From a virus, in the IMG/VR virus record IMGVR_UViG_3300005264_000092, positions 1 to 24,249 of that record: 24,249 nt of DNA; one strand, written 5' to 3'. The notes below the pieces were generated by a model, which searched no databases, was not told where the DNA came from, and saw only the letters and a program-made list of their open reading frames with translations. Both the position numbers and the translations under genes were made by a program. Below are positions 2,865 to 24,249 of this stretch, piece after piece. Within the stretch, counting starts at the first letter, position 1; each line of letters starts with the position of its first letter.

Positions 2865-2892
2865 TTTTAAGGATTTTTAAACTATAATTTTT

Positions 2893-3102
2893 AACGGATG
2901 AAAATAAATATTATGGATGGATATTCTTAAATGAAACTCTTAAAAAATAAATTAAATTATTTAAAAAATCCATTTAAAAATCCATTTAAAACAAGTATAA
3001 TATATATAGATAAAATACAATCTTTAAAAATAAATAAAATTATTTTAAAACTCTTAATTTTAATTAAAAACATCCATCCTATAATATTTATTTTCATCCG
3101 TT
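2893..3102. repeat. Terminal-inverted-repeat element A
   Basis: A 210-bp element starts AACGGATGAAAATAAATATT and ends with its exact reverse complement (3083-3102). The arms extend through GGATGGAT/ATCCATCC for about 32 bp with small mismatches. The interior carries a tandem ATCCATTTAAA repeat (about 2967-2990) and, at about 3019-3050, a run of some 30 bases also present in element C (about 13362-13393). It lies directly behind promoter unit A and is read through by the next open frame. Confidence 0.8.
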
Positions 3103-3863
3103 ATTTTATTACAATTATATTACATTTTAAAAAAAAACATATAAATCCAAATAAAGTATTAATTGTGAATAAAAAGGTTAATTATGTAATAAGTAATGAA
3201 AATATTAACAAAATTTATTATATATTTATTAATGATAAAAAATACAAATCAATATTTACATTAATAGACATAGTAAGGCATTTATATGATTTAGATTTTA
3301 AAAATACTTTAATTAAATTAGACAATGTTAGTGAATTTAACTTTATTAAAAACAATCAGTTAAATATATTGAAAAATAAAATTGAAAATAATTTAGACTA
3401 TGTTAATAGTTTAATAGAACACCCAGTATATAGAAAAATTATTGTAAATATAAAGGATACTATAGAAACTATTAATAGAATAGAGTTAGGAATATATAAT
3501 GATATAAGCAGAAATAAAGAAGGAGACCATTATTTTTTCATCAGTCAAGACAAATTAAGTAAGATTATAAATAAATCAAGAGGTATTGCTGGAAAACATT
3601 TAAATATGATGGTGTTTTTAGGGTTATTAAATAAATTAGAATATAGTGATATTCCAAAAAAATCACTATTAAGAATTAATAAGAAAAATAACTTTAAAAA
3701 TATTAGTTTTTATTCTATACCTAATTATAAAGAAAAAAAGGATATAATTGAAATGTATTTATTTTTAGCTAAAAGTAAAAAAATCACATTGAACAATTTA
3801 ACAACAAAAAAATTAATTAATGATTTAGATATAGAAGAAGAATATGAAGATTTACCATTTTAA
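2931..3863 (+). CDS. Winged-helix protein with CHC2-like stretch, possible replication protein; start uncertain
   Basis: The frame is open from ATG 2931 to TAA 3863 (310 aa). Residues 1-57 are encoded by repeat element A and may not be translated. There is no in-frame ATG between 2931 and the middle of the gene; GTG 3165 is the main alternative and has no clear ribosome binding site. Residues about 95-131 (IYYIFINDKKY, then DIVRHLYDLDFKNTL) resemble the second half of a CHC2 primase zinc-ribbon domain, but the Cys/His ligands are missing. Residues about 202-236 (ISQDKLSKIINKSRGIAGKHL) look like a winged helix. The protein is basic. The resolvase follows at once. A DNA-binding replication or regulatory role is inferred; no family was firmly recognised. 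Confidence 0.55.
   Translation: MKLLKNKLNYLKNPFKNPFKTSIIYIDKIQSLKINKIILKLLILIKNIHPIIFIFIRYFITIILHFKKKHINPNKVLIVNKKVNYVISNENINKIYYIFINDKKYKSIFTLIDIVRHLYDLDFKNTLIKLDNVSEFNFIKNNQLNILKNKIENNLDYVNSLIEHPVYRKIIVNIKDTIETINRIELGIYNDISRNKEGDHYFFISQDKLSKIINKSRGIAGKHLNMMVFLGLLNKLEYSDIPKKSLLRINKKNNFKNISFYSIPNYKEKKDIIEMYLFLAKSKKITLNNLTTKKLINDLDIEEEYEDLPF
3107..3124 (+). promoter_or_regulatory. Paired TATTACA boxes, copy 1
   Basis: TATTACA at 3107-3113 and again at 3118-3124, 11 bp apart, followed by TTTTAAAAAA. The same arrangement occurs at 10080, 11789 and, inverted, at 24092. It lies just right of element A and inside the uncertain N-terminal part of the overlapping frame, which supports a start further downstream for that gene. 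Confidence 0.5.
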
Positions 3864-3878
3864 AAAGGAGGAATTATT

Positions 3879-4433
3879 ATCAAATTATTATGTTTAGACC
3901 AATCATTAGATGTAACAGCATATGCAGTAATAATTAATGGAAGGTTAACAGATTTAGGAATATTTTCCTATAAGAAATTAAAAATCCATCAAAAAAAAAT
4001 ATACCAACAGAAACAAGATATAGAAGATTTAATAATTAAATATAAAATAAATAGTCTTGTAATAGAAGATATTTATTATAGATTTGTAAAATCTTTTAGA
4101 AGTTTATCATATATATATGGCTTAATGTTATTAATATCAGAAGAAAATAATTTAGAATTAATGAAATATTTGCCGAGTGAATGGCGAAAAATCATAGGGA
4201 TAAAAAAACCAGGAAAAACAAGAAAAGAACAAAAAGAAAAAAGTATGAAGTATACAAGAAGAAACTTATTTATAGATACTGATGATATTATGATGAATAA
4301 TTATTATGATATTTATAAAATAAAGAATTTTGAAGATAATGATTTAGCAGATGTATTATGCATTGCAAATGCATATTTAATTGAAAAAAATATAGAATTT
4401 AACCCAGGAGGTTTTAAAAATGATAACGATTAA
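3879..4433 (+). CDS. RuvC-type Holliday junction resolvase, apparent ATC start
   Basis: A 184-residue RuvC-like nuclease that would cut four-way junctions in replicating phage DNA before packaging. LCLDQSLDVTAYAV at the N-terminus carries the first catalytic Asp (D7), LVIED the Glu (E63), and NDLADVLCIA the last acidic pair (D155, D158), so the active site looks intact. The reading frame with the first two motifs has no ATG, GTG or TTG start. AAGGAGG (3865-3871) lies 7 bases before ATC 3879, exactly where the family's usual MKLL..LDQS start belongs; ATT 3876 is the alternative. Starting at the first in-frame ATG (4125) would remove D7 and E63. The end overlaps the next gene by 14 bases. Confidence 0.85.
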   Translation: MKLLCLDQSLDVTAYAVIINGRLTDLGIFSYKKLKIHQKKIYQQKQDIEDLIIKYKINSLVIEDIYYRFVKSFRSLSYIYGLMLLISEENNLELMKYLPSEWRKIIGIKKPGKTRKEQKEKSMKYTRRNLFIDTDDIMMNNYYDIYKIKNFEDNDLADVLCIANAYLIEKNIEFNPGGFKNDND

Positions 4434-5361
4434 AAATAATAAATATATGTTTAAAGAATATAATAAAAACCATATAGTACTAAATAGATTATTAGGTAAA
4501 TATATAAATAAGTATAAACATTATATGGAAAGACCAGATTTGATTCAAGAAATAATAACAGTAATTTTAGAACTGATAAAAGAATATAATATTAATTATG
4601 AAAAAATGACAGAAAAAGATATAACATATATTGGATTTAGATTAAAAATAGATTTGTTTAATATAATTAATAAAGATTATGTTGAGTATATAATTAATTA
4701 TAAAGGAAAAACTGAAAGAGTTTATTTAAGATATACAAATTGTAATATGATAACTTCTGATACTGAAGATGGTTTTAATTTAATGGATTATTTAGATGAA
4801 AACAATTCTTTATTCAATAAAGATGATTACAATTACAAAAGAGTTATAAATTTAGATTATATAATTAATAAAATTAGCAAAACAGAATTAAAATATTTAA
4901 ATGATTTTATGCGTTTTAATGGTGATTATAAAAAATTAGATAATATATATAAAAATAAAAATATGATTAAATATACTTTATTAAAAAAAATAAGTAAATT
5001 GGATTTGTATAGTATTAGGTATTATAATTTTGTAGAATTAAGGAATAAAATCAGTGATTTTTTAAATGATATTTACAATAAAAAAACTAATGAAGTAAAT
5101 TCTTTTTTAGAAGATTTACCAGAATTGTTCTATATAAGCGTTAAGAGTTTTAAAAATCTAAATGAAGGAATAGACAGGATGTTTGATTTTGTTAAATATG
5201 TAGATAATATGAAACCAGAGTTTCTAAATAAAGAATTAATTAAAAAAGATAATACTTTAATTAATCAGATTAAAAATATAAAAGATAATTATGATAAAGA
5301 TGCAAAAATATTTAATGTTAATACTTATGGAATAATAACAGAGTGGAATAAAAGACTATAA
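4420..5361 (+). CDS. Divergent sigma-70-like protein, putative late transcription factor
   Basis: A 313-residue protein starting at ATG 4420 behind GGAGG. Residues about 38-85 (RPDLIQEIITVILELIKEYN, then FRLKIDLFNII) resemble sigma region 2, where the family has DLxQE and a helix that binds core polymerase and opens the -10. Residues about 148-195 (LDYIINKISKTELKYLNDF, then KLDNIYKNKNMIKYTLLKK) could be a region 4 helix-turn-helix. Similarity is by eye and weak. The location directly before the terminase operon, after a resolvase, is where many phages of Gram-positive bacteria carry a late activator or sigma-like factor. A terminator overlaps its stop, and a TATTACTAATATA site then precedes terminase. 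An unrelated helical DNA-binding protein is the alternative. Confidence 0.5.
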   Translation: MITIKNNKYMFKEYNKNHIVLNRLLGKYINKYKHYMERPDLIQEIITVILELIKEYNINYEKMTEKDITYIGFRLKIDLFNIINKDYVEYIINYKGKTERVYLRYTNCNMITSDTEDGFNLMDYLDENNSLFNKDDYNYKRVINLDYIINKISKTELKYLNDFMRFNGDYKKLDNIYKNKNMIKYTLLKKISKLDLYSIRYYNFVELRNKISDFLNDIYNKKTNEVNSFLEDLPELFYISVKSFKNLNEGIDRMFDFVKYVDNMKPEFLNKELIKKDNTLINQIKNIKDNYDKDAKIFNVNTYGIITEWNKRL

Positions 5362-5452: not shown

Positions 5453-5887
5453 ATGGCAGAATTAACAAATCAAAGACATGAAGAATATTGTTTATATAGA
5501 GCTAAAGGATTATTACAATATGAAGCATATTCTAAAGTATACACTAAAGCTAAAAATCCCTCTCAATCAGCGTCAAGATTAGAAAAAGAAGATAATATAA
5601 AAGAAAGAATAAATGAATTAAGGGGAGAATTATTCAAAGAATTAAGATTGGATGATTATTATATATATAAAAATTATAAAGATGCATTGAATAGGTTAAT
5701 TAAATTAGCTGAAAAATCTAAAAAATTTGAAGATGTATTGGAAAGCAACAAAACAATAATATCTATATTGATGTCTTTTATATCTATTAGGAGCGGTGGA
5801 ACAGGTGAATTAGATGCGTCTAATAAATATAGTTTTATGAGTGAAAAAGAGTTAGACAAAGCTATTAAGAATTTAGGTGGTAAATAA
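5453..5887 (+). CDS. Terminase small subunit
   Basis: A 144-residue protein that should bind the packaging site and hand phage DNA to the large terminase. The N-terminus (LTNQRHEEYCLYRAKGLLQYEAYSKVY, about residues 4-30) is the helix-turn-helix typical of Terminase_2/XtmA-type small subunits, where it reads like 'ltekQ..F...y..g.n.t.AA..AGY'. The middle (residues 55-105) is helical and would form the oligomer core. ATG 5453 is preferred over an upstream in-frame ATG at 5432, because AAAGGAGG at about 5438-5445 fits only 5453. The stop overlaps the large-subunit start by one base (TAATG). Confidence 0.85.
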   Translation: MAELTNQRHEEYCLYRAKGLLQYEAYSKVYTKAKNPSQSASRLEKEDNIKERINELRGELFKELRLDDYYIYKNYKDALNRLIKLAEKSKKFEDVLESNKTIISILMSFISIRSGGTGELDASNKYSFMSEKELDKAIKNLGGK

Positions 5888-7380
5888 TGACTATTATTGA
5901 AAAAATAGAACTAATAAAATTATTAAGAGAAAGAAGGATTAGAGAATGTCAAGAAAGTTTCTGGGAATTTTGTAAAGAAGTTTCTCCAACTTTAGATAAT
6001 GGTACTAAATTATATAATGATGACACAATATATTTAAAAGATTTAGCAAATTCATTGCAAGATTTAGTAGAGGGAAAATTACTCGATAAAAATGGAGATG
6101 AATTGAAAGGTTTATGTATATCATTACCACCAAGACATGGTAAATCATTAACGGTTACTTTGTTTTCTAAATGGTATTTAGGAGTATATTCAAATAAAAG
6201 AGTTATAGCAGTTAGTTATTCACAAGATTTAATAAATAATTTTTCAAGAAATATCAGAAATAGTATTAAAGAAGAACCTGAAAGTATTGGTTCAGAAATA
6301 ACATATAAAGATGTTTTTAGTCATTTAGAATTGTCTAAAGATAAAAAATCATTAAAAAACTGGAGTTTAGAAGATACTACTCATCAATTTACTTTTGTAA
6401 CAGCATCTTTTAATACAGCCGTAACAGGATTAGGAACTGATTTAATGATTATAGATGACCCACATAAGAATTCTAAAGAAGCAATGAATGATAAAGAATT
6501 AGAGGAAAAATGGAATACTTTTACAAATACTTTTATATCAAGAATAGAAGGAAATGCAAAGCTAATAGTTATACAGACAAGATGGAGTGAAAATGATATT
6601 ATTGGAAGATTAAAAAGACATGATGAATGGAAGCATAAATTAAAATTTATAAATGAAAAAGTAGTGAAAGAAGATACTGAAGGTAATTTACATTTTTTAA
6701 ATGAAAGTATAATGGATGAAAAAGCATATAATGTAAAAAAATCAATCATATCAGAAATGATTTTTGAAGCAAACTATAATCAAAAAATAATAGATTTAGA
6801 TGTTGCACTGTATAAAAAATATAAATTATATGATGAATTACCAGACATTAAAGATAAGGAATTAGTAGGTGTAATTGACCCATCAGCAGATGGAAAAGAT
6901 TATACAGCTGTTCTGATAGGTTATTATTATAAATCTATAGATAAAATATATTTAACTGATATATACTATGATAACTCGCCAATAACCAAGACTGAAGATG
7001 ATATAGTGAATTTTTTAATTGATAGTAAAGTAGAAAGAGTTATTATGGAGACCAATTCGGCATTTGTTATTCTATATAATAATATAAAGAATAAGTTAAA
7101 AAGAAAAGGGCATATAATAGATATGAAAAAATTCACACAAAGACAGAATAAAAAAGAAAGAATTTTAACAGCATCAAATGCGGTTCAATTAGATATATAT
7201 TTTATGCCTGATTTTAAGACAACTCATTATAAAGTATATCAACAATTCAGCAGATTTAAAGCTGATTTTAATGCTAATAAACATGATGATTTTGAAGACG
7301 CATTAACTCTATTATGGGAAAAATTTATAAACGCAAAAGATATTAAAGCAGAAGTATATAATGGTAGAATATTTATATAA
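5887..7380 (+). CDS. Terminase large subunit (ATPase and nuclease)
   Basis: The 497-residue packaging motor that pumps DNA into the prohead and cuts the concatemer. The ATPase half has Walker A PPRHGKS (residues 81-87) and Walker B LMIIDDP (about 186-192). IQTRWSENDIIG (229-240) is a conserved stretch typical of the family. The RNase H-like nuclease half shows its acidic residues in VIDPS (D331), METN (E388) and DDFEDA (D468, D471). All key residues appear present and the length is normal. It is translationally coupled to the small subunit through TAATG. The portal follows after 27 bases with its own ribosome binding site. Confidence 0.97.
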   Translation: MTIIEKIELIKLLRERRIRECQESFWEFCKEVSPTLDNGTKLYNDDTIYLKDLANSLQDLVEGKLLDKNGDELKGLCISLPPRHGKSLTVTLFSKWYLGVYSNKRVIAVSYSQDLINNFSRNIRNSIKEEPESIGSEITYKDVFSHLELSKDKKSLKNWSLEDTTHQFTFVTASFNTAVTGLGTDLMIIDDPHKNSKEAMNDKELEEKWNTFTNTFISRIEGNAKLIVIQTRWSENDIIGRLKRHDEWKHKLKFINEKVVKEDTEGNLHFLNESIMDEKAYNVKKSIISEMIFEANYNQKIIDLDVALYKKYKLYDELPDIKDKELVGVIDPSADGKDYTAVLIGYYYKSIDKIYLTDIYYDNSPITKTEDDIVNFLIDSKVERVIMETNSAFVILYNNIKNKLKRKGHIIDMKKFTQRQNKKERILTASNAVQLDIYFMPDFKTTHYKVYQQFSRFKADFNANKHDDFEDALTLLWEKFINAKDIKAEVYNGRIFI

Positions 7381-7407
7381 TTTAAAATTTAAAAGGAGGT
7401 TTTAAAA

Positions 7408-9711: not shown

Positions 9712-9825
9712 ATTTATTATTGTTAAGAGATTATTATTATATATTGTATATTATTGTTTATTGTATACAGGTATTTTTAATAGTTTCAAGGTATTGTTAA
9801 TAATTAATTATATTTTTAAAGAATT

Positions 9826-9993
9826 AACAGATGAAATAAAATATAAAGGATGGATATTTTTAGCGTTTCAATTTGAAGCGTTTTATTTTTTAAATATTTT
9901 AATTTATTTTTATAGATATATTTTAGCGTTTCAATTTGAAGCGTTTCATTTTCATTTAAGAATATCCATCCATAATATTTATTTTCATCCGTT
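9826..9993. repeat. Terminal-inverted-repeat element B
   Basis: A 168-bp element. The left arm is the variant AACAGATGAAATAAAATAT, then GGATGGAT. The right arm ends with the exact reverse complement of AACGGATGAAAATAAATATT. Read leftward, the first 40-odd bases (9993 down to about 9951) match the left arm of element A almost base for base. The interior holds two copies of AGCGTTTCAATTTGAAGCG (9862-9880, 9925-9943), a near-perfect dyad. Confidence 0.8.
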
Positions 9994-10021
9994 AAGAATT
10001 ATAATTTAAAAATCCTTAAAA

Positions 10022-10077
10022 ATTACACTAAAACATATAGTAAGTTATGCTCACCATATGTCAAGATATATTGACGG
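10022..10077 (-). promoter_or_regulatory. Promoter/operator unit, inverted copy B
   Basis: The reverse complement matches units A and C. TTGACA is at 10064-10059 on the minus strand, inside an imperfect dyad TGTCAA-N6-TTGACG. GGTGAGCATAACTTACTAT follows, and the -10-like position reads TGTAAT (10027-10022) instead of TATAAT. It points left into element B with no gene downstream before the terminator at 9685-9711. Confidence 0.5.
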
Positions 10078-11894: not shown

Positions 11895-13043
11895 ATGAAT
11901 AAATTTGAAATAGCAAAAACAGTTGATTTTACAGAGGTAATAGCAGAGCCAGTAAGAATATTATCTAAAGGGTATATGCTTATTAGTAATAATAGCTTAA
12001 AAATATTTGAATGTGATGGAAAATGGTTTTATAGGGATTTTGGGGCAAACAATGATAAAGGTTCTGGAATTGATTATCTAGTAAATAAAGAAAATTATTC
12101 TTTAAAAGAAGCAGTTGATTTATTAGTGAAACATGCAGGTTATAATGTTGAAGATTTAGATAATGAATATAGACAATCTACAAAAATAAATAAAACTATT
12201 AAAAGAAGTTCTGACAATGTTTCAAGAAAAGATAAAATTAGTACTGAAAAATCATTAGAAATTACTAATAATATTATTAAGGAATTTAAAAAATTACAGC
12301 CAGAGAAAAAACAGGAAAAAATAAAGATGAATGATAGAGAGTTAGAAGTATTTTTTAAAAGTATAATTAGTAAAATAAAGGTACATGATAATTTTGGAAC
12401 TTATAGATATTTAGTTAATTTTAGAAAAATAGATATAGGAATATTTAATTTTTTCTACAAACAAGGATATTTAATAAGAGCATTAAAACCTAATATAAAA
12501 GAAAATTACAATCCTTATTATGAATTTAATAAAAGTTATGATAAACATATACAAAATGATGAAACAACAACAGGATTTGTATGTATTAATCCATTAACTA
12601 AAAAAACAACTGGCTTGATGTTAAGAGCTAATAGAGATTTAAGAAAATTCAAAGGTAATAAAAAGGCGTGGTTTAAAAATATAGATAATACTAAATGGGG
12701 ATTTGGATTTTTAAAAGGAAAACCTTATACAATGACAATAATTGAAGCTCCTTTAGATGTATTAAGTTATATATCTATTAATAAAAATCAGAATAAATTA
12801 AAGAATAATTATATTGTAGCAATGGGTGGTAATAATCAAGATATGATGATGGATAATATAGCTGAATTAAGGAGTTCTGGCTTAAGCAAGGTAATTATAG
12901 CAACTGATGCTGATAATGCAGGAGAAGAGATGTTTAAGGGGTTAAAAGACAGAATAAATAACTTATATAATGATTTAGAAGTTGAGCGAGAAAGACCGAG
13001 TGAAAATATTGGAAAAGATTGGAATGATTATCTAACTAAATAG
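11895..13043 (+). CDS. TOPRIM primase-like protein (DUF3991/TOPRIM type)
   Basis: A 382-residue protein of the primase/TOPRIM class carried by phages and plasmids; it would synthesise RNA primers or otherwise act in DNA replication. Residues about 36-84 (KIFECDGKWFYRDFG, then GIDYLVNKENYSLKEAVDLL) are a CHC2-type module without a full Cys/His set. The TOPRIM core shows TIIEAPLDVLS (E284) and IIATDADNAG (D338, D340), the metal-binding residues. The end GKDWNDYL (373-380) is the usual closing motif of this class. Residues 95-145 are a basic linker. ATG 11895 follows AAGGAG at 10 bases. No helicase lies in the window. Confidence 0.8.
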   Translation: MNKFEIAKTVDFTEVIAEPVRILSKGYMLISNNSLKIFECDGKWFYRDFGANNDKGSGIDYLVNKENYSLKEAVDLLVKHAGYNVEDLDNEYRQSTKINKTIKRSSDNVSRKDKISTEKSLEITNNIIKEFKKLQPEKKQEKIKMNDRELEVFFKSIISKIKVHDNFGTYRYLVNFRKIDIGIFNFFYKQGYLIRALKPNIKENYNPYYEFNKSYDKHIQNDETTTGFVCINPLTKKTTGLMLRANRDLRKFKGNKKAWFKNIDNTKWGFGFLKGKPYTMTIIEAPLDVLSYISINKNQNKLKNNYIVAMGGNNQDMMMDNIAELRSSGLSKVIIATDADNAGEEMFKGLKDRINNLYNDLEVERERPSENIGKDWNDYLTK

Positions 13044-13096: not shown

Positions 13097-13153
13097 GTTG
13101 TCAATATATCTTGACAAACGGTGAGCATAACTTACTATATGTTTTAGTATAAT
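13097..13153 (+). promoter_or_regulatory. Promoter/operator unit, copy C
   Basis: TTGTCAA (13098-13104), N6, TTGACAA (13111-13117), then the conserved GGTGAGCATAACTTACTAT and TATAAT at 13148-13153. It matches unit A closely over about 57 bases, with about two differences, while the next 40 bases diverge. It points into element C and the scaffold/capsid operon. Confidence 0.6.
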
Positions 13154-13197
13154 TTTTTTAAGTAAAATATAAATGGAATTTTTAAATTAAAATCATT

Positions 13198-13434
13198 AAC
13201 GGATGAAAATAAATATATTGGATGGATAAAACCCTCTATATATAAAAATATCCTTAAAAATGAAATTCTAACAATATTTAAAGATATAAATATATAAATT
13301 AATCAAGAATATATTAAATCCTCTTAAAATCGAATTTAAGCGTTATTTATTATTAATAATCTTTAAAAATAAATAAAATTATTTTAAAGAGTTTTATTTA
13401 AGAATATCCATCCAAATATTTATTTTCATCCGTT
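13198..13434. repeat. Terminal-inverted-repeat element C
   Basis: A 237-bp element with left arm AACGGATGAAAATAAATAT, then ATTGGATGGAT, and a right arm that is its reverse complement ending ATCCGTT. The left two thirds (13198 to about 13343) match element E with about ten differences. The right third shares a run of about 30 bases with element A. Confidence 0.8.
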
Positions 13435-13488
13435 AGAAGTTTAAATAATTTTATATTTTTTTATAAAAATCCAAATATTTATTTATTA

Positions 13489-16495: not shown

Positions 16496-17065
16496 ATGGC
16501 ATTTATAGATAAAAATAACAATAACATTATAGGTATTAGTGATTTTCACTACGCACTATTAACAGAAAATACTATATCAGCTTATACACATGCAGAAATG
16601 ACACCAATTGTCGGATTAGCACAAGTAGGAGTTTCACCAGTATTGGCAGAAGGTTCTTTTTACGGAGACAATTCAAGATTATTATATGAAAAATCAATAA
16701 CTGGTTTTGATTTAACGGTAGAATTAGGTTCAATTCCTGAAGCGGTTAAAGCTGAATGGTTTGGTAATGATTACAATGAAACAACTGGTAAAGTAATAAT
16801 TAAGAGTTCTGATATATCAGGAGAATTAGCAATTGCATTTAAAGCAGTTAAAGCTGATGGACAGTTTACTTATTTTAAATTTTTAGCAAGTAAAGCTCAA
16901 TTAGGAGATTCAAGTATAGCTACTAAAGGTTCAGATATTACTTTTCAATCAGAAACAATTACTTTTAATTGTATTGCAAGAATTACTGATGGAGCATTAT
17001 ATGAAAAACAATTAGCAGGAACAGATGGAGCTGAAGGTGCAGATTTTTTTAATGCAGTAGTTTAA
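16496..17065 (+). CDS. Major tail protein (phi13 family)
   Basis: A 189-residue tail tube protein. YALLTENTISAYTHAEMTPIVGLAQVGVSP at the N-terminus and KSITGFDLTVELGSIPEAVKAEWFGND match the phi13-type major tail family. A Gly/Asp/Ala-rich end (GTDGAEGADFFNAVV) is typical. It polymerises into hexameric rings that form the non-contractile tail tube, so this is a siphovirus. A strong terminator follows immediately, although the tail chaperone and tape measure genes come only 2 kb later. Confidence 0.9.
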   Translation: MAFIDKNNNNIIGISDFHYALLTENTISAYTHAEMTPIVGLAQVGVSPVLAEGSFYGDNSRLLYEKSITGFDLTVELGSIPEAVKAEWFGNDYNETTGKVIIKSSDISGELAIAFKAVKADGQFTYFKFLASKAQLGDSSIATKGSDITFQSETITFNCIARITDGALYEKQLAGTDGAEGADFFNAVV

Positions 17066-17274: not shown

Positions 17275-17637
17275 ATGGAATATACAGATATAGAAATAGT
17301 AGAACATATAAGAAATTATAGTTATTTTAATAAATTTAAAGATTTAAGTATTGATGAAGAGGATAATTTTCATAGTGGATTTTTTACATTATCAGCAGTA
17401 ATTAATTATAGTGATTATAAAAAAACAACAACTATTGATACAATATGCAATGAATTTAAAAAAGATATAATTAAGAAAGGTTATAAAATTAATATATATA
17501 ATATAGAACCAAGAATAAATATAGATTTAGAAGCAAGAAATAAATTAGTAGAAACTTACAGATTTATTCATCCAGGAATTAATACAGATAAGATAAATGT
17601 ATTAACAATAGTTTTTTATTATAAAGGAGTGATATAG
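17275..17637 (+). CDS. Hypothetical protein (120 aa), cassette gene 1
   Basis: A 120-residue protein with mixed alpha/beta character (HIRNYSYFNKFKD; VINYSDYKKTTTIDT; INVLTIVFYYKGVI as a final strand). No signal, membrane span or known motif. ATG 17275 follows AAAAGGAGG. It is first in a set of four genes that has its own promoter, lying between the major tail gene's terminator and element D. It could be a tail-associated or accessory protein; nothing in the sequence decides this. Confidence 0.6.
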   Translation: MEYTDIEIVEHIRNYSYFNKFKDLSIDEEDNFHSGFFTLSAVINYSDYKKTTTIDTICNEFKKDIIKKGYKINIYNIEPRINIDLEARNKLVETYRFIHPGINTDKINVLTIVFYYKGVI

Positions 17638-17638
17638 A

Positions 17639-18205
17639 ATGTCAAAAGTATATGAAAAAGCAGTGGAATTTTTATCATTAAATAGTGTTTATGAAGCACC
17701 ACAAGTATTTTTATTTAATAGATTATTAGATAAAATAAAACCAGAACATAGAGAAAAAGTACAGAAAATAATATTAGAGGATTTTGATAATTATGTAGAA
17801 AATTATAAAATAATTAAAGAATATGCAGATGGAAGATTAAAGAAAACATTTTATATACATGCATTTAATTTAGATTATTTAACAGAAAAAGAACAGAAAA
17901 AATATAATGATTTTTTAGCTAAAAGATTAAATGATAATATTGAAGCACATTTAAGTTATATTATCTTCTTAAAAATGGAAAGAAGTATTATTAAAAGTAA
18001 AATTGAAAAAATCAAAGGTAATGTAGTACCTAAAGAATTAGAAGCTATAATTACAAGCCATATTGAAATTAGTAATGATGCAATACAGGCATTAGGGTTT
18101 AAATTAGACTACATGAAAGAAGTAAATAAATTCTTTAATTTAGTTAATAAAGATATTTTTAAAGAAGCAGAACATATATTAAAACAACTAAAAGGGGAGG
18201 TGTAA
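17639..18205 (+). CDS. Hypothetical helical protein (188 aa), cassette gene 2
   Basis: A 188-residue, almost wholly helical, basic protein starting one base after the previous stop, behind AAAGGAG. Repeated amphipathic helices (FLFNRLLDKIKPEHREKVQKIILEDF; EAHLSYIIFLKMERSIIKSKIEKIKG) suggest a helical bundle. No catalytic motif, DNA-binding pattern or membrane span stands out. The longest gene of the cassette; function unknown. Confidence 0.6.
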   Translation: MSKVYEKAVEFLSLNSVYEAPQVFLFNRLLDKIKPEHREKVQKIILEDFDNYVENYKIIKEYADGRLKKTFYIHAFNLDYLTEKEQKKYNDFLAKRLNDNIEAHLSYIIFLKMERSIIKSKIEKIKGNVVPKELEAIITSHIEISNDAIQALGFKLDYMKEVNKFFNLVNKDIFKEAEHILKQLKGEV

Positions 18206-18208
18206 TAA

Positions 18209-18532
18209 ATGAATAAAGAAGATAAATTAAATAGTAAAGTATTATCATTAATATTTAATAAAAATGAAGTAGATTTGAAAAATGCAGGAATATATAAAGA
18301 ATTTAATCAAGATATATATATTGATGAAGATAAAAATATAGAGGAAATAGAAGAGGAAATTAAGATTTATAATAAGATAAGATTAGATTTATTATTAAAT
18401 AACAATAAAGAATATAAAGGTTTTAAATATTATGATTTTTATATAGAGGATTTAGAAAAATATGATTATTCAAGTAATTTTTCTAAAATTAGAATAGTAT
18501 TTGTATTAAAGGAGGTGTTGTTTAATGGATGA
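18209..18532 (+). CDS. Hypothetical acidic protein (107 aa), cassette gene 3
   Basis: A 107-residue protein with an acidic centre (YIDEDKNIEEIEEEIKIYNKIR) and a tyrosine-rich second half (YKGFKYYDFYIEDLEKYDY). AAGGGGAGG precedes ATG 18209. It ends in TGA (18530-18532), the only TGA stop found in the window, and overlaps the next gene by 8 bases. No family was recognised. Confidence 0.55.
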   Translation: MNKEDKLNSKVLSLIFNKNEVDLKNAGIYKEFNQDIYIDEDKNIEEIEEEIKIYNKIRLDLLLNNNKEYKGFKYYDFYIEDLEKYDYSSNFSKIRIVFVLKEVLFNG

Positions 18533-18887
18533 AAAAACATTGAATAAATACACAAAAAAAGAATTAATAACTAAAATATTAAATAATGATTTTAAGAATG
18601 GAAAATATGATGAAGATATAATTAGTCAAATGATGAAAATGAAGATGGTTAGAAGCGTCAAATTAAGGCGTGATGAATTTAAATTAGTATTAGTATATAA
18701 AGCTATAGAACAATATGAAGAGCTTATAAATGAAGATACAGATGTAATTATAGATACTTTTATAAGATGTAGAGAATTTTTAGAAAAAGTAAAGATAGGT
18801 TATAAAGTTAATGAAGATGAAATAGCAGAAGGGTTTTTAGATTTATATGTAAATGCTTATCTATTCTCTGGTGGATTAATTCATTAA
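18525..18887 (+). CDS. Hypothetical protein (120 aa), cassette gene 4
   Basis: A 120-residue helical protein (TLNKYTKKELITKILNNDF; RDEFKLVLVYKAIEQYEELI). AAAGGAGG (18508-18515) precedes ATG 18525. Its TAA stop (18885-18887) shares two bases with the first bases of element D, so the element abuts or overlaps the coding end. No family was recognised; context is the moron-like cassette. Confidence 0.6.
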   Translation: MDEKTLNKYTKKELITKILNNDFKNGKYDEDIISQMMKMKMVRSVKLRRDEFKLVLVYKAIEQYEELINEDTDVIIDTFIRCREFLEKVKIGYKVNEDEIAEGFLDLYVNAYLFSGGLIH

Positions 18888-19113
18888 CAGATGAAATAAA
18901 ATATTTTGGATGGATGTTCTTAAATGAAAAAGTAGCGTTTCAAATTGAAGCGTTATTTTTTTTACATGTAATTCTTTAAATAATTTATTTTATTTTTAAA
19001 AGAAAGTAGCGTTTCAAATTGAAGCGTTAATTCTTTAAATAATTTATTTTATATTTTAAAACTCCTGATTTTTATTTAAAAATATCCATCCATAATATTT
19101 ATTTTCATCCGTT
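18886..19113. repeat. Terminal-inverted-repeat element D
   Basis: A 228-bp element with left arm AACAGATGAAATAAAATAT, then GGATGGAT, and a right arm ending with the exact reverse complement of AACGGATGAAAATAAATATT. The interior is an imperfect tandem duplication: AGCGTTTCAAATTGAAGCG at 18934-18952 and 19008-19026, each followed by ATTCTTTAAATAATTTATTT. It fills nearly the whole gap between the cassette and the tail chaperone gene and has the same orientation as element B. Confidence 0.8.
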
Positions 19114-19125
19114 TATGTTTTATTT

Positions 19126-19140: not shown

Positions 19141-19159
19141 TTATGAAAGAGGTGATATT

Positions 19160-19765
19160 ATGAAAAAAACTAATACATTTAATTTAAATATGAATGTAAT
19201 TGACAGAAGTAAAAAAATAACATTATTTAATATTGAAATATATTGGCGTTTTACAATGCAATCATTATTTATATTAATGAATGATTTTGATTATAAATCA
19301 GAAGGTGAATTAAATAAAGATTTAAAAGATGGAAACATATATACTATATTAAGAGTTTTTTATTCTGGTATATTATGGGATGAAGAGGAAGATAAACCAT
19401 CATTTGAAAGATTTTTGATGTTCTATAATGCAGGTTATGATTTAGAAAAAAATGAGGAAGTATTAAAAACCTCTGAATTTGTAATTAAGAATTTATCAGA
19501 TTATTTATTTGTTAATAAAGATGATAAAAAAAAAGATAAAAAATCAGATGTAAAAGATGGAAAAGATGAAGGTATTAATTTTGATAGAATGGTATTAGCA
19601 AGTAGAATTAATTTAAATATAAAAGATGATGAATTTTGGACAAGTAGTCCAAGAAAAATATATTCTCAATTTATAGAATATAATAATATGTATTCTAAAG
19701 ATGAAAAAGAAGAGAAAAAAACAATGAATGGTGATGATTTAGAAAAAATGTTATCAGGATTTTAA
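19160..19765 (+). CDS. Tail assembly chaperone (gpG/GT-like) with A9 slippery run
   Basis: A 201-residue protein between major tail and tape measure, the slot of the tail assembly chaperones gpG and gpGT. The N-terminal part (about residues 1-120: FNIEIYWRFTMQSLFILMNDF, then YTILRVFYSGIL) looks like gpG. The C-terminal part (FDRMVLASRINLNIKDDEFWTSSPRKIYSQF) looks like gpT, where related proteins have EFWxxTPRxxxxxL. Here both are in one continuous frame, joined by a Lys/Asp linker with nine A (19526-19534). Slippage by one base in either direction there reaches a stop within a few codons and would give the short gpG-like form. ATG 19160 follows AGAGGTGA; an upstream in-frame ATG at 19115 lies next to element D and has no such site. 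Confidence 0.75.
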   Translation: MKKTNTFNLNMNVIDRSKKITLFNIEIYWRFTMQSLFILMNDFDYKSEGELNKDLKDGNIYTILRVFYSGILWDEEEDKPSFERFLMFYNAGYDLEKNEEVLKTSEFVIKNLSDYLFVNKDDKKKDKKSDVKDGKDEGINFDRMVLASRINLNIKDDEFWTSSPRKIYSQFIEYNNMYSKDEKEEKKTMNGDDLEKMLSGF

Positions 19766-19782: not shown

Positions 19783-22700
19783 ATGGCATTAGGAACAAAT
19801 ACAAGAAATATATTAGTAAATATAAATTCAAATGCAGTTGCGTTTGCTACTCAAATGGGAATAGCTGGAAATGCAGTCGCAGGATTACAAGGAAATATTA
19901 AAAGTTTAGGAAAAACAATGACTACCAAATTAACTTTACCTTTAGTAGCATTAGGTGGAGTTTTAATTAAAACAGCATCAGATGTAGAACAGATGTCTTC
20001 TAAATTTAGCATAGTATTCGGTGATTTGTCAGAAGAGGTTACTGGTTGGAGTGAAGAAGTTGCAGATGTAATGAGTAGGAGCAAATATGATATTCAAGAA
20101 TATGCAGTAAGTTTTCAAGATTTATTAAAACCAATGGGTTTTATGGCAGATGAAGCTAAAGAATTATCAAAAGATTTAACAACTTTAGGAATTGATGTGG
20201 CAAGTTTAAATCACAAATCAGATGTTGATGTTATGAGGGATTTTCAAGGAGCATTAACAGGTTCATCAGAAACGGTTAAAAAATACGGTATAATTATAAA
20301 TGATGCAACAATTAAGCAAGAAGCAGAAAGAATGGGAATAAAAAGAAGCGTTAGAGAATTGACAGAATTAGAAAAAGTAAGGATTAAGTATAATATTTTA
20401 GTAAATTCAACAACAGATGCACACGGAAACGCAGAATTAACAGCACATGAATTAGCTAATGAATTTAAAAATTTGCAAGGAAGTTTAAAAGAATTATCAA
20501 AAGAATTAGGTGAAGAATTAATGCCAATGGCAACTGATGTAGTTGTAAAATTAACAGAATTAGCTGATAAAGTTGCAGGAATGGACAGTGATTCACAAAA
20601 AAGAATATTGGCAATTGGAGCAATAGTCGCATCAGCTGGACCTCTATTATTAATATTGAGTGCATTAATAAGTTCGACAACAGTTGTATTAAGTACAGCA
20701 AAAAAAATCCCATTAGTATTAGGTAAGGTTAAAACAGCTATTATGGGTGTTACTGCATCAACAGCAGGATTAGTTATAGGTTTAGCTGGTATAGTTGGTG
20801 GAATGGCAGTATTAATTAAATTTTTTAAAGATTATGGTGATGAAATAGAAAGAGTAAATACTGGAACTCAAAGAATGAAAGATATATATGCTGATGGAAT
20901 TATAGACAGTAAAGAGTTTGATGAAGGCAGAGAATCAATGAAGAAGATAACTCAAGAATTAGATGATATAAAAAATAAGGGTTTAGAAGTACAAAGGGTT
21001 TTAGAGGGTACTGAATTAAAATTTATAATTAAACCAACGGTGGATTATAAAGGAACAGCATATGAAGCATTAAAAATCCAACATGAAATAAATTCTAAAG
21101 GTGGATTAGTTGATGAAATCCAGTTAAATTTTGGAGATATTGAAACCTTTTTAAAAGCAAATAATGATTTTTTAAATATTCAACAACAAAGAGCAATAGT
21201 TACTAAAGATGTTAAAAATGCAGTTGATAGTTTAACAAATGCTGAAAGTAGAAATAAAGATACTTTATCAAGATTAGTAAAAAGTTATGATATAACTATA
21301 GAGTCAATGGTGGATGAAAAAGAAAGAGTTAATGATTTAGTAAAAACATACAATGATATGTCAGTAGAAACTAATTTAAATATAGAGGATAAGAAAGCAT
21401 TAAAAGCCATAGAAGATGAATTAAGTAATACTATTGGAGTATCATCAACAATCATTGATAAACAAACAAATAGTTTAAAATTAAATATGAATGCTATAAA
21501 TAATTATAATGACACAGTGTCTGGAAGTATATCATCAATGACAGATACAACAACTAAAGGATTGTTAGATTATAAAAAAGAATTAGATTCTCAATATGAA
21601 CAAGCCGAATATAAAAGAGCAATAGCAAGAACAGAATATATGATGGCAGATGATGATTTTAGTAAAAAAGAATATCAAAAGAAAATAGATGCATTAGAAA
21701 CTCATTTATTAGATATTGAAGATTTAAGACAGCAAGCAGATGATAAATTAATTGAAAAAGCCCGAGAAAACACTGATTTATTAATTAAGAATGCAAAAGA
21801 TAGAGCCAGTGAAGAAATACAAGCAGAGGAAGAATTACAGCAGAAATTAGAGGAATTAAGAGCATCTAAAGTAAATAAAGAAATATCTTTAAATCAATAC
21901 AAATATGATGTCCAAGAAAAAACATTAGAAGAATATTCAGCAAAATTAAAATGGATTTTAAAAAATAATAGTAGATATTATGAAGAAAATTTAAATGAAG
22001 AATTAAATATTAGAAGACAAATATATCAATCAGAACAACAATTAGAAGAGAGCAGAATACAAGATAAGATTAATTTATTAAATAAGGCAAATGATGATGT
22101 AATAGATGGAATAAACAAGGAAAAACAAGCCCTAAAAGAGAAATATGATTTAGATATAGGATTTATTAATGATAAAAAAAATGCAGAGATACAAGCATTT
22201 GAAGAGGTAGAAAGAAAATTATCAGATAGTAGAGATAGTGGAAGAATAGAGGAAATAAATCAATTATTAGAAGTATATAAGCAATCAACATCAGCATCAG
22301 GACAAGCAGAATATAAAAAGTTAATTCAGGAAAGAGAAGATTTGCAATTAGATTTACAAAAAAGTTATTTAGATAAACAGTCTGAAGTATATGATGAAAT
22401 TAATGATATTAGAAAATCCCAATATGAAGATGATTTAGCAGAGATAGATAATAAAGAAACATTAATAGAAAATAATTATAAAGAATTGATTAATAATATT
22501 AATAATATAACAGATGAATTATCATCAGAAGCAATATTAAAGATAGATAATTTTAAAATAGAATTAAATAAAGGAATTGCAGATATATTTAATATAGATA
22601 ATATCCCTAAATTCACTGGAAATATTCAAGCATTATCAATAGATACTAATTTATCAACTCCTGAAGCAGTTAAAACTGGGCAGATATATAATGTTAAAAA

Positions 22701-22803
22701 TGATATAACTTTAAATAATAGTTTTAATATCTCGAGTGAAATGGATATAGAGGAAACTGGCGAGAAATTAACTAAAATAATTATAGAAGGAACAAGGGGG
22801 TAA
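19783..22803 (+). CDS. Tape measure protein
   Basis: A 1006-residue tail length ruler. It starts with a tape-measure N-terminal region (MTTKLTLPLVALGGVLIKTASDVEQMSSKF), followed by a long helical part. A hydrophobic stretch at about residues 275-350 (LAIGAIVASAGPLLLILSALI; AGLVIGLAGIVGGMAVLIKF) is the membrane-active part that helps DNA cross the host membrane. Residues about 560-900 are long coiled coils rich in Glu, Lys and Gln. The end is a short beta-rich domain. The family usually scales tail length at about 0.15 nm per residue, which suggests a tail near 150 nm. No lytic transglycosylase or peptidase motif was seen. AAGGAGG precedes ATG 19783. Confidence 0.95.
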   Translation: MALGTNTRNILVNINSNAVAFATQMGIAGNAVAGLQGNIKSLGKTMTTKLTLPLVALGGVLIKTASDVEQMSSKFSIVFGDLSEEVTGWSEEVADVMSRSKYDIQEYAVSFQDLLKPMGFMADEAKELSKDLTTLGIDVASLNHKSDVDVMRDFQGALTGSSETVKKYGIIINDATIKQEAERMGIKRSVRELTELEKVRIKYNILVNSTTDAHGNAELTAHELANEFKNLQGSLKELSKELGEELMPMATDVVVKLTELADKVAGMDSDSQKRILAIGAIVASAGPLLLILSALISSTTVVLSTAKKIPLVLGKVKTAIMGVTASTAGLVIGLAGIVGGMAVLIKFFKDYGDEIERVNTGTQRMKDIYADGIIDSKEFDEGRESMKKITQELDDIKNKGLEVQRVLEGTELKFIIKPTVDYKGTAYEALKIQHEINSKGGLVDEIQLNFGDIETFLKANNDFLNIQQQRAIVTKDVKNAVDSLTNAESRNKDTLSRLVKSYDITIESMVDEKERVNDLVKTYNDMSVETNLNIEDKKALKAIEDELSNTIGVSSTIIDKQTNSLKLNMNAINNYNDTVSGSISSMTDTTTKGLLDYKKELDSQYEQAEYKRAIARTEYMMADDDFSKKEYQKKIDALETHLLDIEDLRQQADDKLIEKARENTDLLIKNAKDRASEEIQAEEELQQKLEELRASKVNKEISLNQYKYDVQEKTLEEYSAKLKWILKNNSRYYEENLNEELNIRRQIYQSEQQLEESRIQDKINLLNKANDDVIDGINKEKQALKEKYDLDIGFINDKKNAEIQAFEEVERKLSDSRDSGRIEEINQLLEVYKQSTSASGQAEYKKLIQEREDLQLDLQKSYLDKQSEVYDEINDIRKSQYEDDLAEIDNKETLIENNYKELINNINNITDELSSEAILKIDNFKIELNKGIADIFNIDNIPKFTGNIQALSIDTNLSTPEAVKTGQIYNVKNDITLNNSFNISSEMDIEETGEKLTKIIIEGTRG

Positions 22804-24092: not shown

Positions 24093-24103
24093 TAAGTATT
24101 TTT

Positions 24104-24249
24104 AACGAATGAAAATAAATATTATGGATGGATAAAACCCTTTATATGTAAAAATATCCTTAAAAATGAAGTTCTAACAATATTTAAAGATATCAATATA
24201 TAAATTAATTAAGAATATATTAAATCCCTTTAGAATTGAAATTTAAGCG
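24104..24249. repeat. Terminal-inverted-repeat element E (cut by the window end)
   Basis: The left arm AACGAATGAAAATAAATATT, then ATGGATGGAT, continues with an interior that matches element C (13198 to about 13343) with about ten differences over some 145 bases. The expected right arm lies outside the window. No coding frame is called in this stretch. Confidence 0.75.

Follow-up and report, generated by a model that had tools for sequence, protein, structure and literature searches.

A tail assembly chaperone gene with its G and T parts in one reading frame and nine A residues at the joint: a possible case of dnaX-like slippage

How does a long-tailed phage obtain two forms of its tail assembly chaperone if both parts of the gene already share one reading frame? 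The G/GT frameshift is among the most conserved recoding events of long-tailed phages. The window analysed here, i.e. the whole 24,249-base IMG/VR virus record IMGVR_UViG_3300005264_000092, belongs to an AT-rich (GC content 23 %), unclassified tailed phage, and a first-pass annotation had proposed that its chaperone gene inverts the usual siphovirus layout, with the long form in frame.

The contig carries intact head and tail genes, i.e. those for terminase, portal, minor head protein, scaffold, major head protein, adaptor and neck, as well as for a phi13-type major tail protein, tape measure and Dit. The major tail protein gene (16496–17065, plus strand, as are all chaperone and tail features below; phrog_88, 5.7e-28; TIGR01603, 5.4e-21) and the TP901-type tape measure gene (19783–22803; several tape-measure PHROGs and tblastn matches to a Methanoculleus virus and others) enclose the chaperone gene at 19160–19765. 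Four extra ORFs without assigned function (17275–18887) separate the major tail protein from the chaperone, an interval in which the relatives mostly have none. Searches with the chaperone, major tail protein, terminase or tape measure found no close relatives in viral contigs, nor did searches of genomes with the chaperone or tape measure or of phages with the chaperone; the best terminase matches among phages and viral contigs share around 30–34 % identity. Plasmid, amidase and Toprim searches for host clues returned distant matches only, and no Rfam family was found in the 24,249-base window. A Toprim-domain protein (11895–13043; PF13155, 5e-13) has almost no match in phages.

The contig also harbours five copies of a MITE-like element (2891–3100, 9824–9995, 13196–13440, 18884–19115 and 24102–24249), mostly intergenic and with inverted arms (TTAACGGATGAAAATAAATATTATGGATGGATA ... 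TATCCATCCATAATATTTATTTTCATCCGTTA), one of which stops some 45 bases ahead of the chaperone start, while another is truncated where the contig ends. Two copies contain inner repeats like GCGTTTCAAATTGAAGCGTT, and an exact 30-base pattern of the repeat arm was not found in other viral contigs. Three of the elements are adjoined by a conserved 58-base module around TTGACAAACGGTGAGCAYAACTTACTATATGTTTTAGTATAAT (2811–2868, 10018–10075 in inverted orientation, and 13100–13157), in which TTGACA- and TATAAT-like words occur and which may be a promoter or operator.

The chaperone ORF follows a Shine–Dalgarno-like AGAGGTGAT (19148–19156), starts at ATG 19160 and encodes 201 aa, comprising a gpG-like part of 125 aa (19160–19534) and a gpT-like part with the core DEFWTSSPRK (19535–19765). 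At the joint lies an A9 run (19526–19534), codon-aligned as AAA AAA AAA and the only run of at least eight A in the ORF, and the frame stays open throughout (GAT GAT AAA AAA AAA GAT AAA AAA TCA). The one-frame arrangement described by the first-pass annotation thus holds, and so do the immediate stops that it had predicted for a one-base slip: a −1 slip, or one extra A in the mRNA, leads to TAA at 19537–19539 and a product of 126 aa ending in DDKKKR, and a +1 slip, or the loss of one A from mRNA or DNA, leads to TAA at 19551–19553 and a product of 130 aa ending in DDKKKIKNQM.

The assignment of the gene as a tail chaperone, also made in the first-pass annotation, is supported by its position between major tail protein and tape measure and by the homology of its C-terminal part, which is, by sequence comparison, a gpT domain. 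This part matches phrog_10988 (E value of 0.001, or 3.1e-5 when only its own contig is searched), a family that also covers the T parts of Ruminococcus phage NatCom_2329 (2e-27) and Enterococcus phage 9183 (8e-8), both of which were reached independently via the phi13-type major tail protein of the window. Pattern searches with the window's T part led to more T domains (loci L112–L123), including that of L115, with EEFWASTPRKI against DEFWTSSPRKI in the window and a blastp value of 4e-7. With an HMM of nine T parts from relatives, the chaperone ORF was the only significant ORF match (E value of 1.7e-10), a value that is partly circular because some members had been found with the window's own T part. 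An independent internal start of T at ATG 19590 was considered and rejected, as no good Shine–Dalgarno sequence was seen there by eye.

For the N-terminal part, the gpG-like assignment is based on its position, its size and a modest fold match. No sequence match was obtained for it, including homology to Phage_TAC_19 and the HMM of the relatives' G parts, and since this HMM had no significant match anywhere in the window, the chaperone and the four extra ORFs alike are not shown to be gpG by sequence; among the ORFs from major tail protein to tape measure, no second gpG-like gene was found (best HMM E value of 0.11). A single-sequence structure model was useless (pLDDT 36), while a model of the G part built with the relatives' G rows (pLDDT 62) shows a beta hairpin followed by helices, and among viral folds it matches a tail assembly chaperone best (E value of 2.5e-3; PDB 2ob9, the HK97 chaperone, Z 3.5). 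This fold match is supportive only, because the relatives entered the alignment as gpG.

The inverted frame logic suggested for this gene finds support in the relatives, which show the reverse arrangement. In all 28 loci with both parts recognisable, a survey that favours recognisable G/T pairs and, as some loci are near-identical, represents fewer than 28 lineages, T lies out of frame with G, i.e. at −1 in 22 loci and at +1/−2 in six, and 21 of the 22 −1 loci carry a slippery heptamer at the joint (A_AAA_AAC, C_CCA_AAC, G_GGA_AAG and similar). As T is never found in the G frame there, the in-frame fusion of the window is an exception. NatCom_2329, phage 9183 and loci L114–L116 share with the window a homologous T part, a chaperone gene adjoining the tape measure gene and a (in the window, candidate) shift site at the G/T joint, and the two phages also its phi13-type major tail protein; they differ in that gpG is in frame and T is reached by −1 (A_AAA_AAC) or +1, whereas in the window T is in frame and a slip would yield gpG. 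The A9 run is located where the relatives carry their shift site, usually 0–5 and up to 14 codons ahead of the G stop, and the predicted short forms of 126 and 130 aa compare with G products of 99–147 aa in the relatives. In distant relatives, the joint holds a heptamer or lacks a run. In tblastn searches with fused G+T queries, 17 records cover most of the NatCom-type query and 12 are Enterococcus records, partly overlapping the 28 loci, and all matches come in two pieces, as expected from a frame break. With these loci and the Cormatin ORF described below taken together, the in-frame state is rare, though perhaps not unique.

Three loci deserve separate mention. The joint of L123 (3935–3950) is near-identical to those of L114, L115 and L116, except that it lacks one C just past the G stop, and this shifts T from −1 to +1/−2, either as a natural change or as a contig error. 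Flavonifractor phage Cormatin (L007, ON453905.1), a distant relative, has, after its major tail protein, a 177-aa ORF (4282–4815) which by eye resembles an in-frame G+T without an A run at the joint and has no library or family match. In L094 (PV036457.1, 4624–7666), a group II intron (RF00029, 7414–7510; reverse transcriptase ORF, 5598–7388) appears to split the T part downstream of A_AAA_AAC, so that making gpGT from this locus would take both splicing and a −1 shift.

How unusual is the A9 run itself? The lysine codons of the chaperone gene are AAA in 25 cases and AAG in one, and when the protein and the gene's own codon counts are held fixed, the KKK at the joint is all AAA in 88 % of synonymous permutations. 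The run by itself is therefore what KKK and codon usage predict. A9 occurs three times on the plus strand of the contig (3129, 3991 and 19526), twice in coding sequence, the other in-frame case (3129–3137) lying within an unrelated ORF. The early stops at the joint are likewise ordinary, since off-frame stops make up 14–17 % of codons in the contig. The unusual feature is the frame relation, with G and T in one frame in the window and in none of the 28 relative loci. Across the genes of the contig, runs of at least eight A are mildly scarce (eight observed versus 13.9 expected; 0.7 % of permutations as low), which would be expected if such runs slip here and slippage is costly. Downstream of the joint there is no RNA structure beyond that of shuffled sequences (fold z −1.1), and by eye no SD-like stimulator is present just upstream of A9, these being the two kinds of stimulator of −1 sites of the E. 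coli dnaX type.

Our preferred reading, held with somewhat less than even confidence, is that this is a chaperone with T in the G frame, in which gpGT is made by standard decoding and gpG by slippage at A9. Slightly more tentatively, we propose that programmed −1 frameshifting has been exchanged for slippage in the style of dnaX, so that gpGT would be the default product and gpG the recoded one. A single-base change close to the homopolymer is the most likely event to have placed the T domain in frame with G, and since then standard decoding would give the long gpGT. A9 would then persist as a residual recoding site, at which the RNA polymerase would slip, giving A8 or A10 transcripts, and the ribosome would slip to a lesser degree (−1 on A_AAA_AAA). 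Whatever its direction, a slip would run into a stop almost immediately and leave a gpG-like protein of 126 or 130 aa, an outcome known from dnaX of Thermus thermophilus. That slippage occurs, how much of it there is and that the short form is needed are points that we infer.

The closest parallel is T. thermophilus dnaX, an unrelated gene in which an in-frame A9 yields around 50 % short product (PMC1088944). Both genes have early stops in the two other frames and make the long protein (tau in dnaX) by standard decoding; they differ in that gamma of T. thermophilus arises by transcriptional slippage measured at about 50 %, while slippage in the window is predicted from its sequence. In E. coli dnaX, too, a −1 ribosomal frameshift (at A_AAA_AAG) gives the short product, gamma, at a near stop, as the putative slip would here, with the difference that the E. 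coli site has SD-like and stem-loop stimulators of which none were found at the window's joint. The chaperone of Stenotrophomonas phage TS-12 likewise has an A9 run at the G/T joint (A9-G), in contrast one base out of phase, which produces the ordinary −1 layout, and its two parts are members of other families (G and T, Phage_TAC_19 and phrog_7255). As Baranov and colleagues note (PMC1088944), slippage that shortens a product is inherently hard to address by comparison, since no coding sequence is gained that could be compared.

The need for a short product is suggested by lambda and TP901-1, in both of which the ratio of short to long form is essential. TP901-1 with gpG and gpT permanently fused forms normal-looking but non-infectious particles (PMC4493119), and lambda requires a balanced gpG : gpGT ratio of about 30 : 1 (PMC5009743). 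On these grounds a phage with gpGT alone would be expected to fail, and the short product is probably needed in this phage as well, with A9 as its plausible source. The lambda ratio also counts against slippage, as slippage at A9 would probably yield mainly the long form, or both forms at nearly 1 : 1, i.e. the reverse of lambda.

It is rather unlikely, though far from negligible, that the gene is a true in-frame fusion without functional slippage, in which the long protein suffices or the short form comes from elsewhere, such as cleavage of the KD-rich linker by a protease or, as has been proposed for T4-like phages, a separate gene, with A9 reflecting mere AT-rich lysine codons. The prediction of the run by codon usage is in line with this, as is the Cormatin ORF at the same position, together with the annotation of a single chaperone gene in 347 SEA-PHAGES genomes and the report, known from a reference title within the same paper, that T4-like phages make their chaperone forms without frameshifting (PMC10885494). 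Against it stand the lost infectivity of the TP901-1 fusion, the two-product layout kept wherever G and T were both recognised (28 of 28 relative loci) and also in the tblastn matches, and the lack of a second gpG-like gene between major tail protein and tape measure. The TP901-1 result can also be turned the other way, i.e. towards a defective copy, a mutant or decaying genome whose chaperone became locked in the gpGT form by a frame mutation. We consider this very improbable, as no recognised structural gene is disrupted or out of order. In its favour, genes are commonly inactivated by the gain or loss of one base in a run.

A rather unlikely but by no means negligible alternative is that the true DNA, all or most of it, has A8, either because of a homopolymer consensus error or because the contig captured one version of a run whose length changes through replication slippage. 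With one A fewer, the gene would be ordinary (AAA AAA AAG ATA AAA AAT CAG ATG TAA), with a 130-aa gpG in frame and a −1 shift to gpGT on the heptamer A_AAA_AAG, five codons past which the stop follows; this is the common layout, −1 being used in 22 of the 28 relative loci. Moreover, the one-base difference between the joints of L123 and L114–L116 demonstrates that such changes occur or are recorded. The remainder of the contig speaks against it, since homopolymer errors left no sign elsewhere, with 27 predicted genes intact over 28 runs of at least seven A (eight of them of at least eight), and terminase, portal and similar proteins aligning across nearly their whole length; even so, a single faulty run would suffice.

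If the short form is indeed made by slippage at A9, selection would keep the two-product rule and not the frame arrangement, and a homopolymer could serve either way, as it does in dnaX, genes for which exist in both orientations (PMC3711429). Frame calls at such joints in metagenomic contigs depend on one base. If the polymerase slips at the run, templates with A8, A9 and A10 would all be expected to give both products, in differing proportions, and the exact number of A residues in the DNA would therefore matter less than it seems. The inverted and the ordinary logic would in that case be adjacent states of a single gene.
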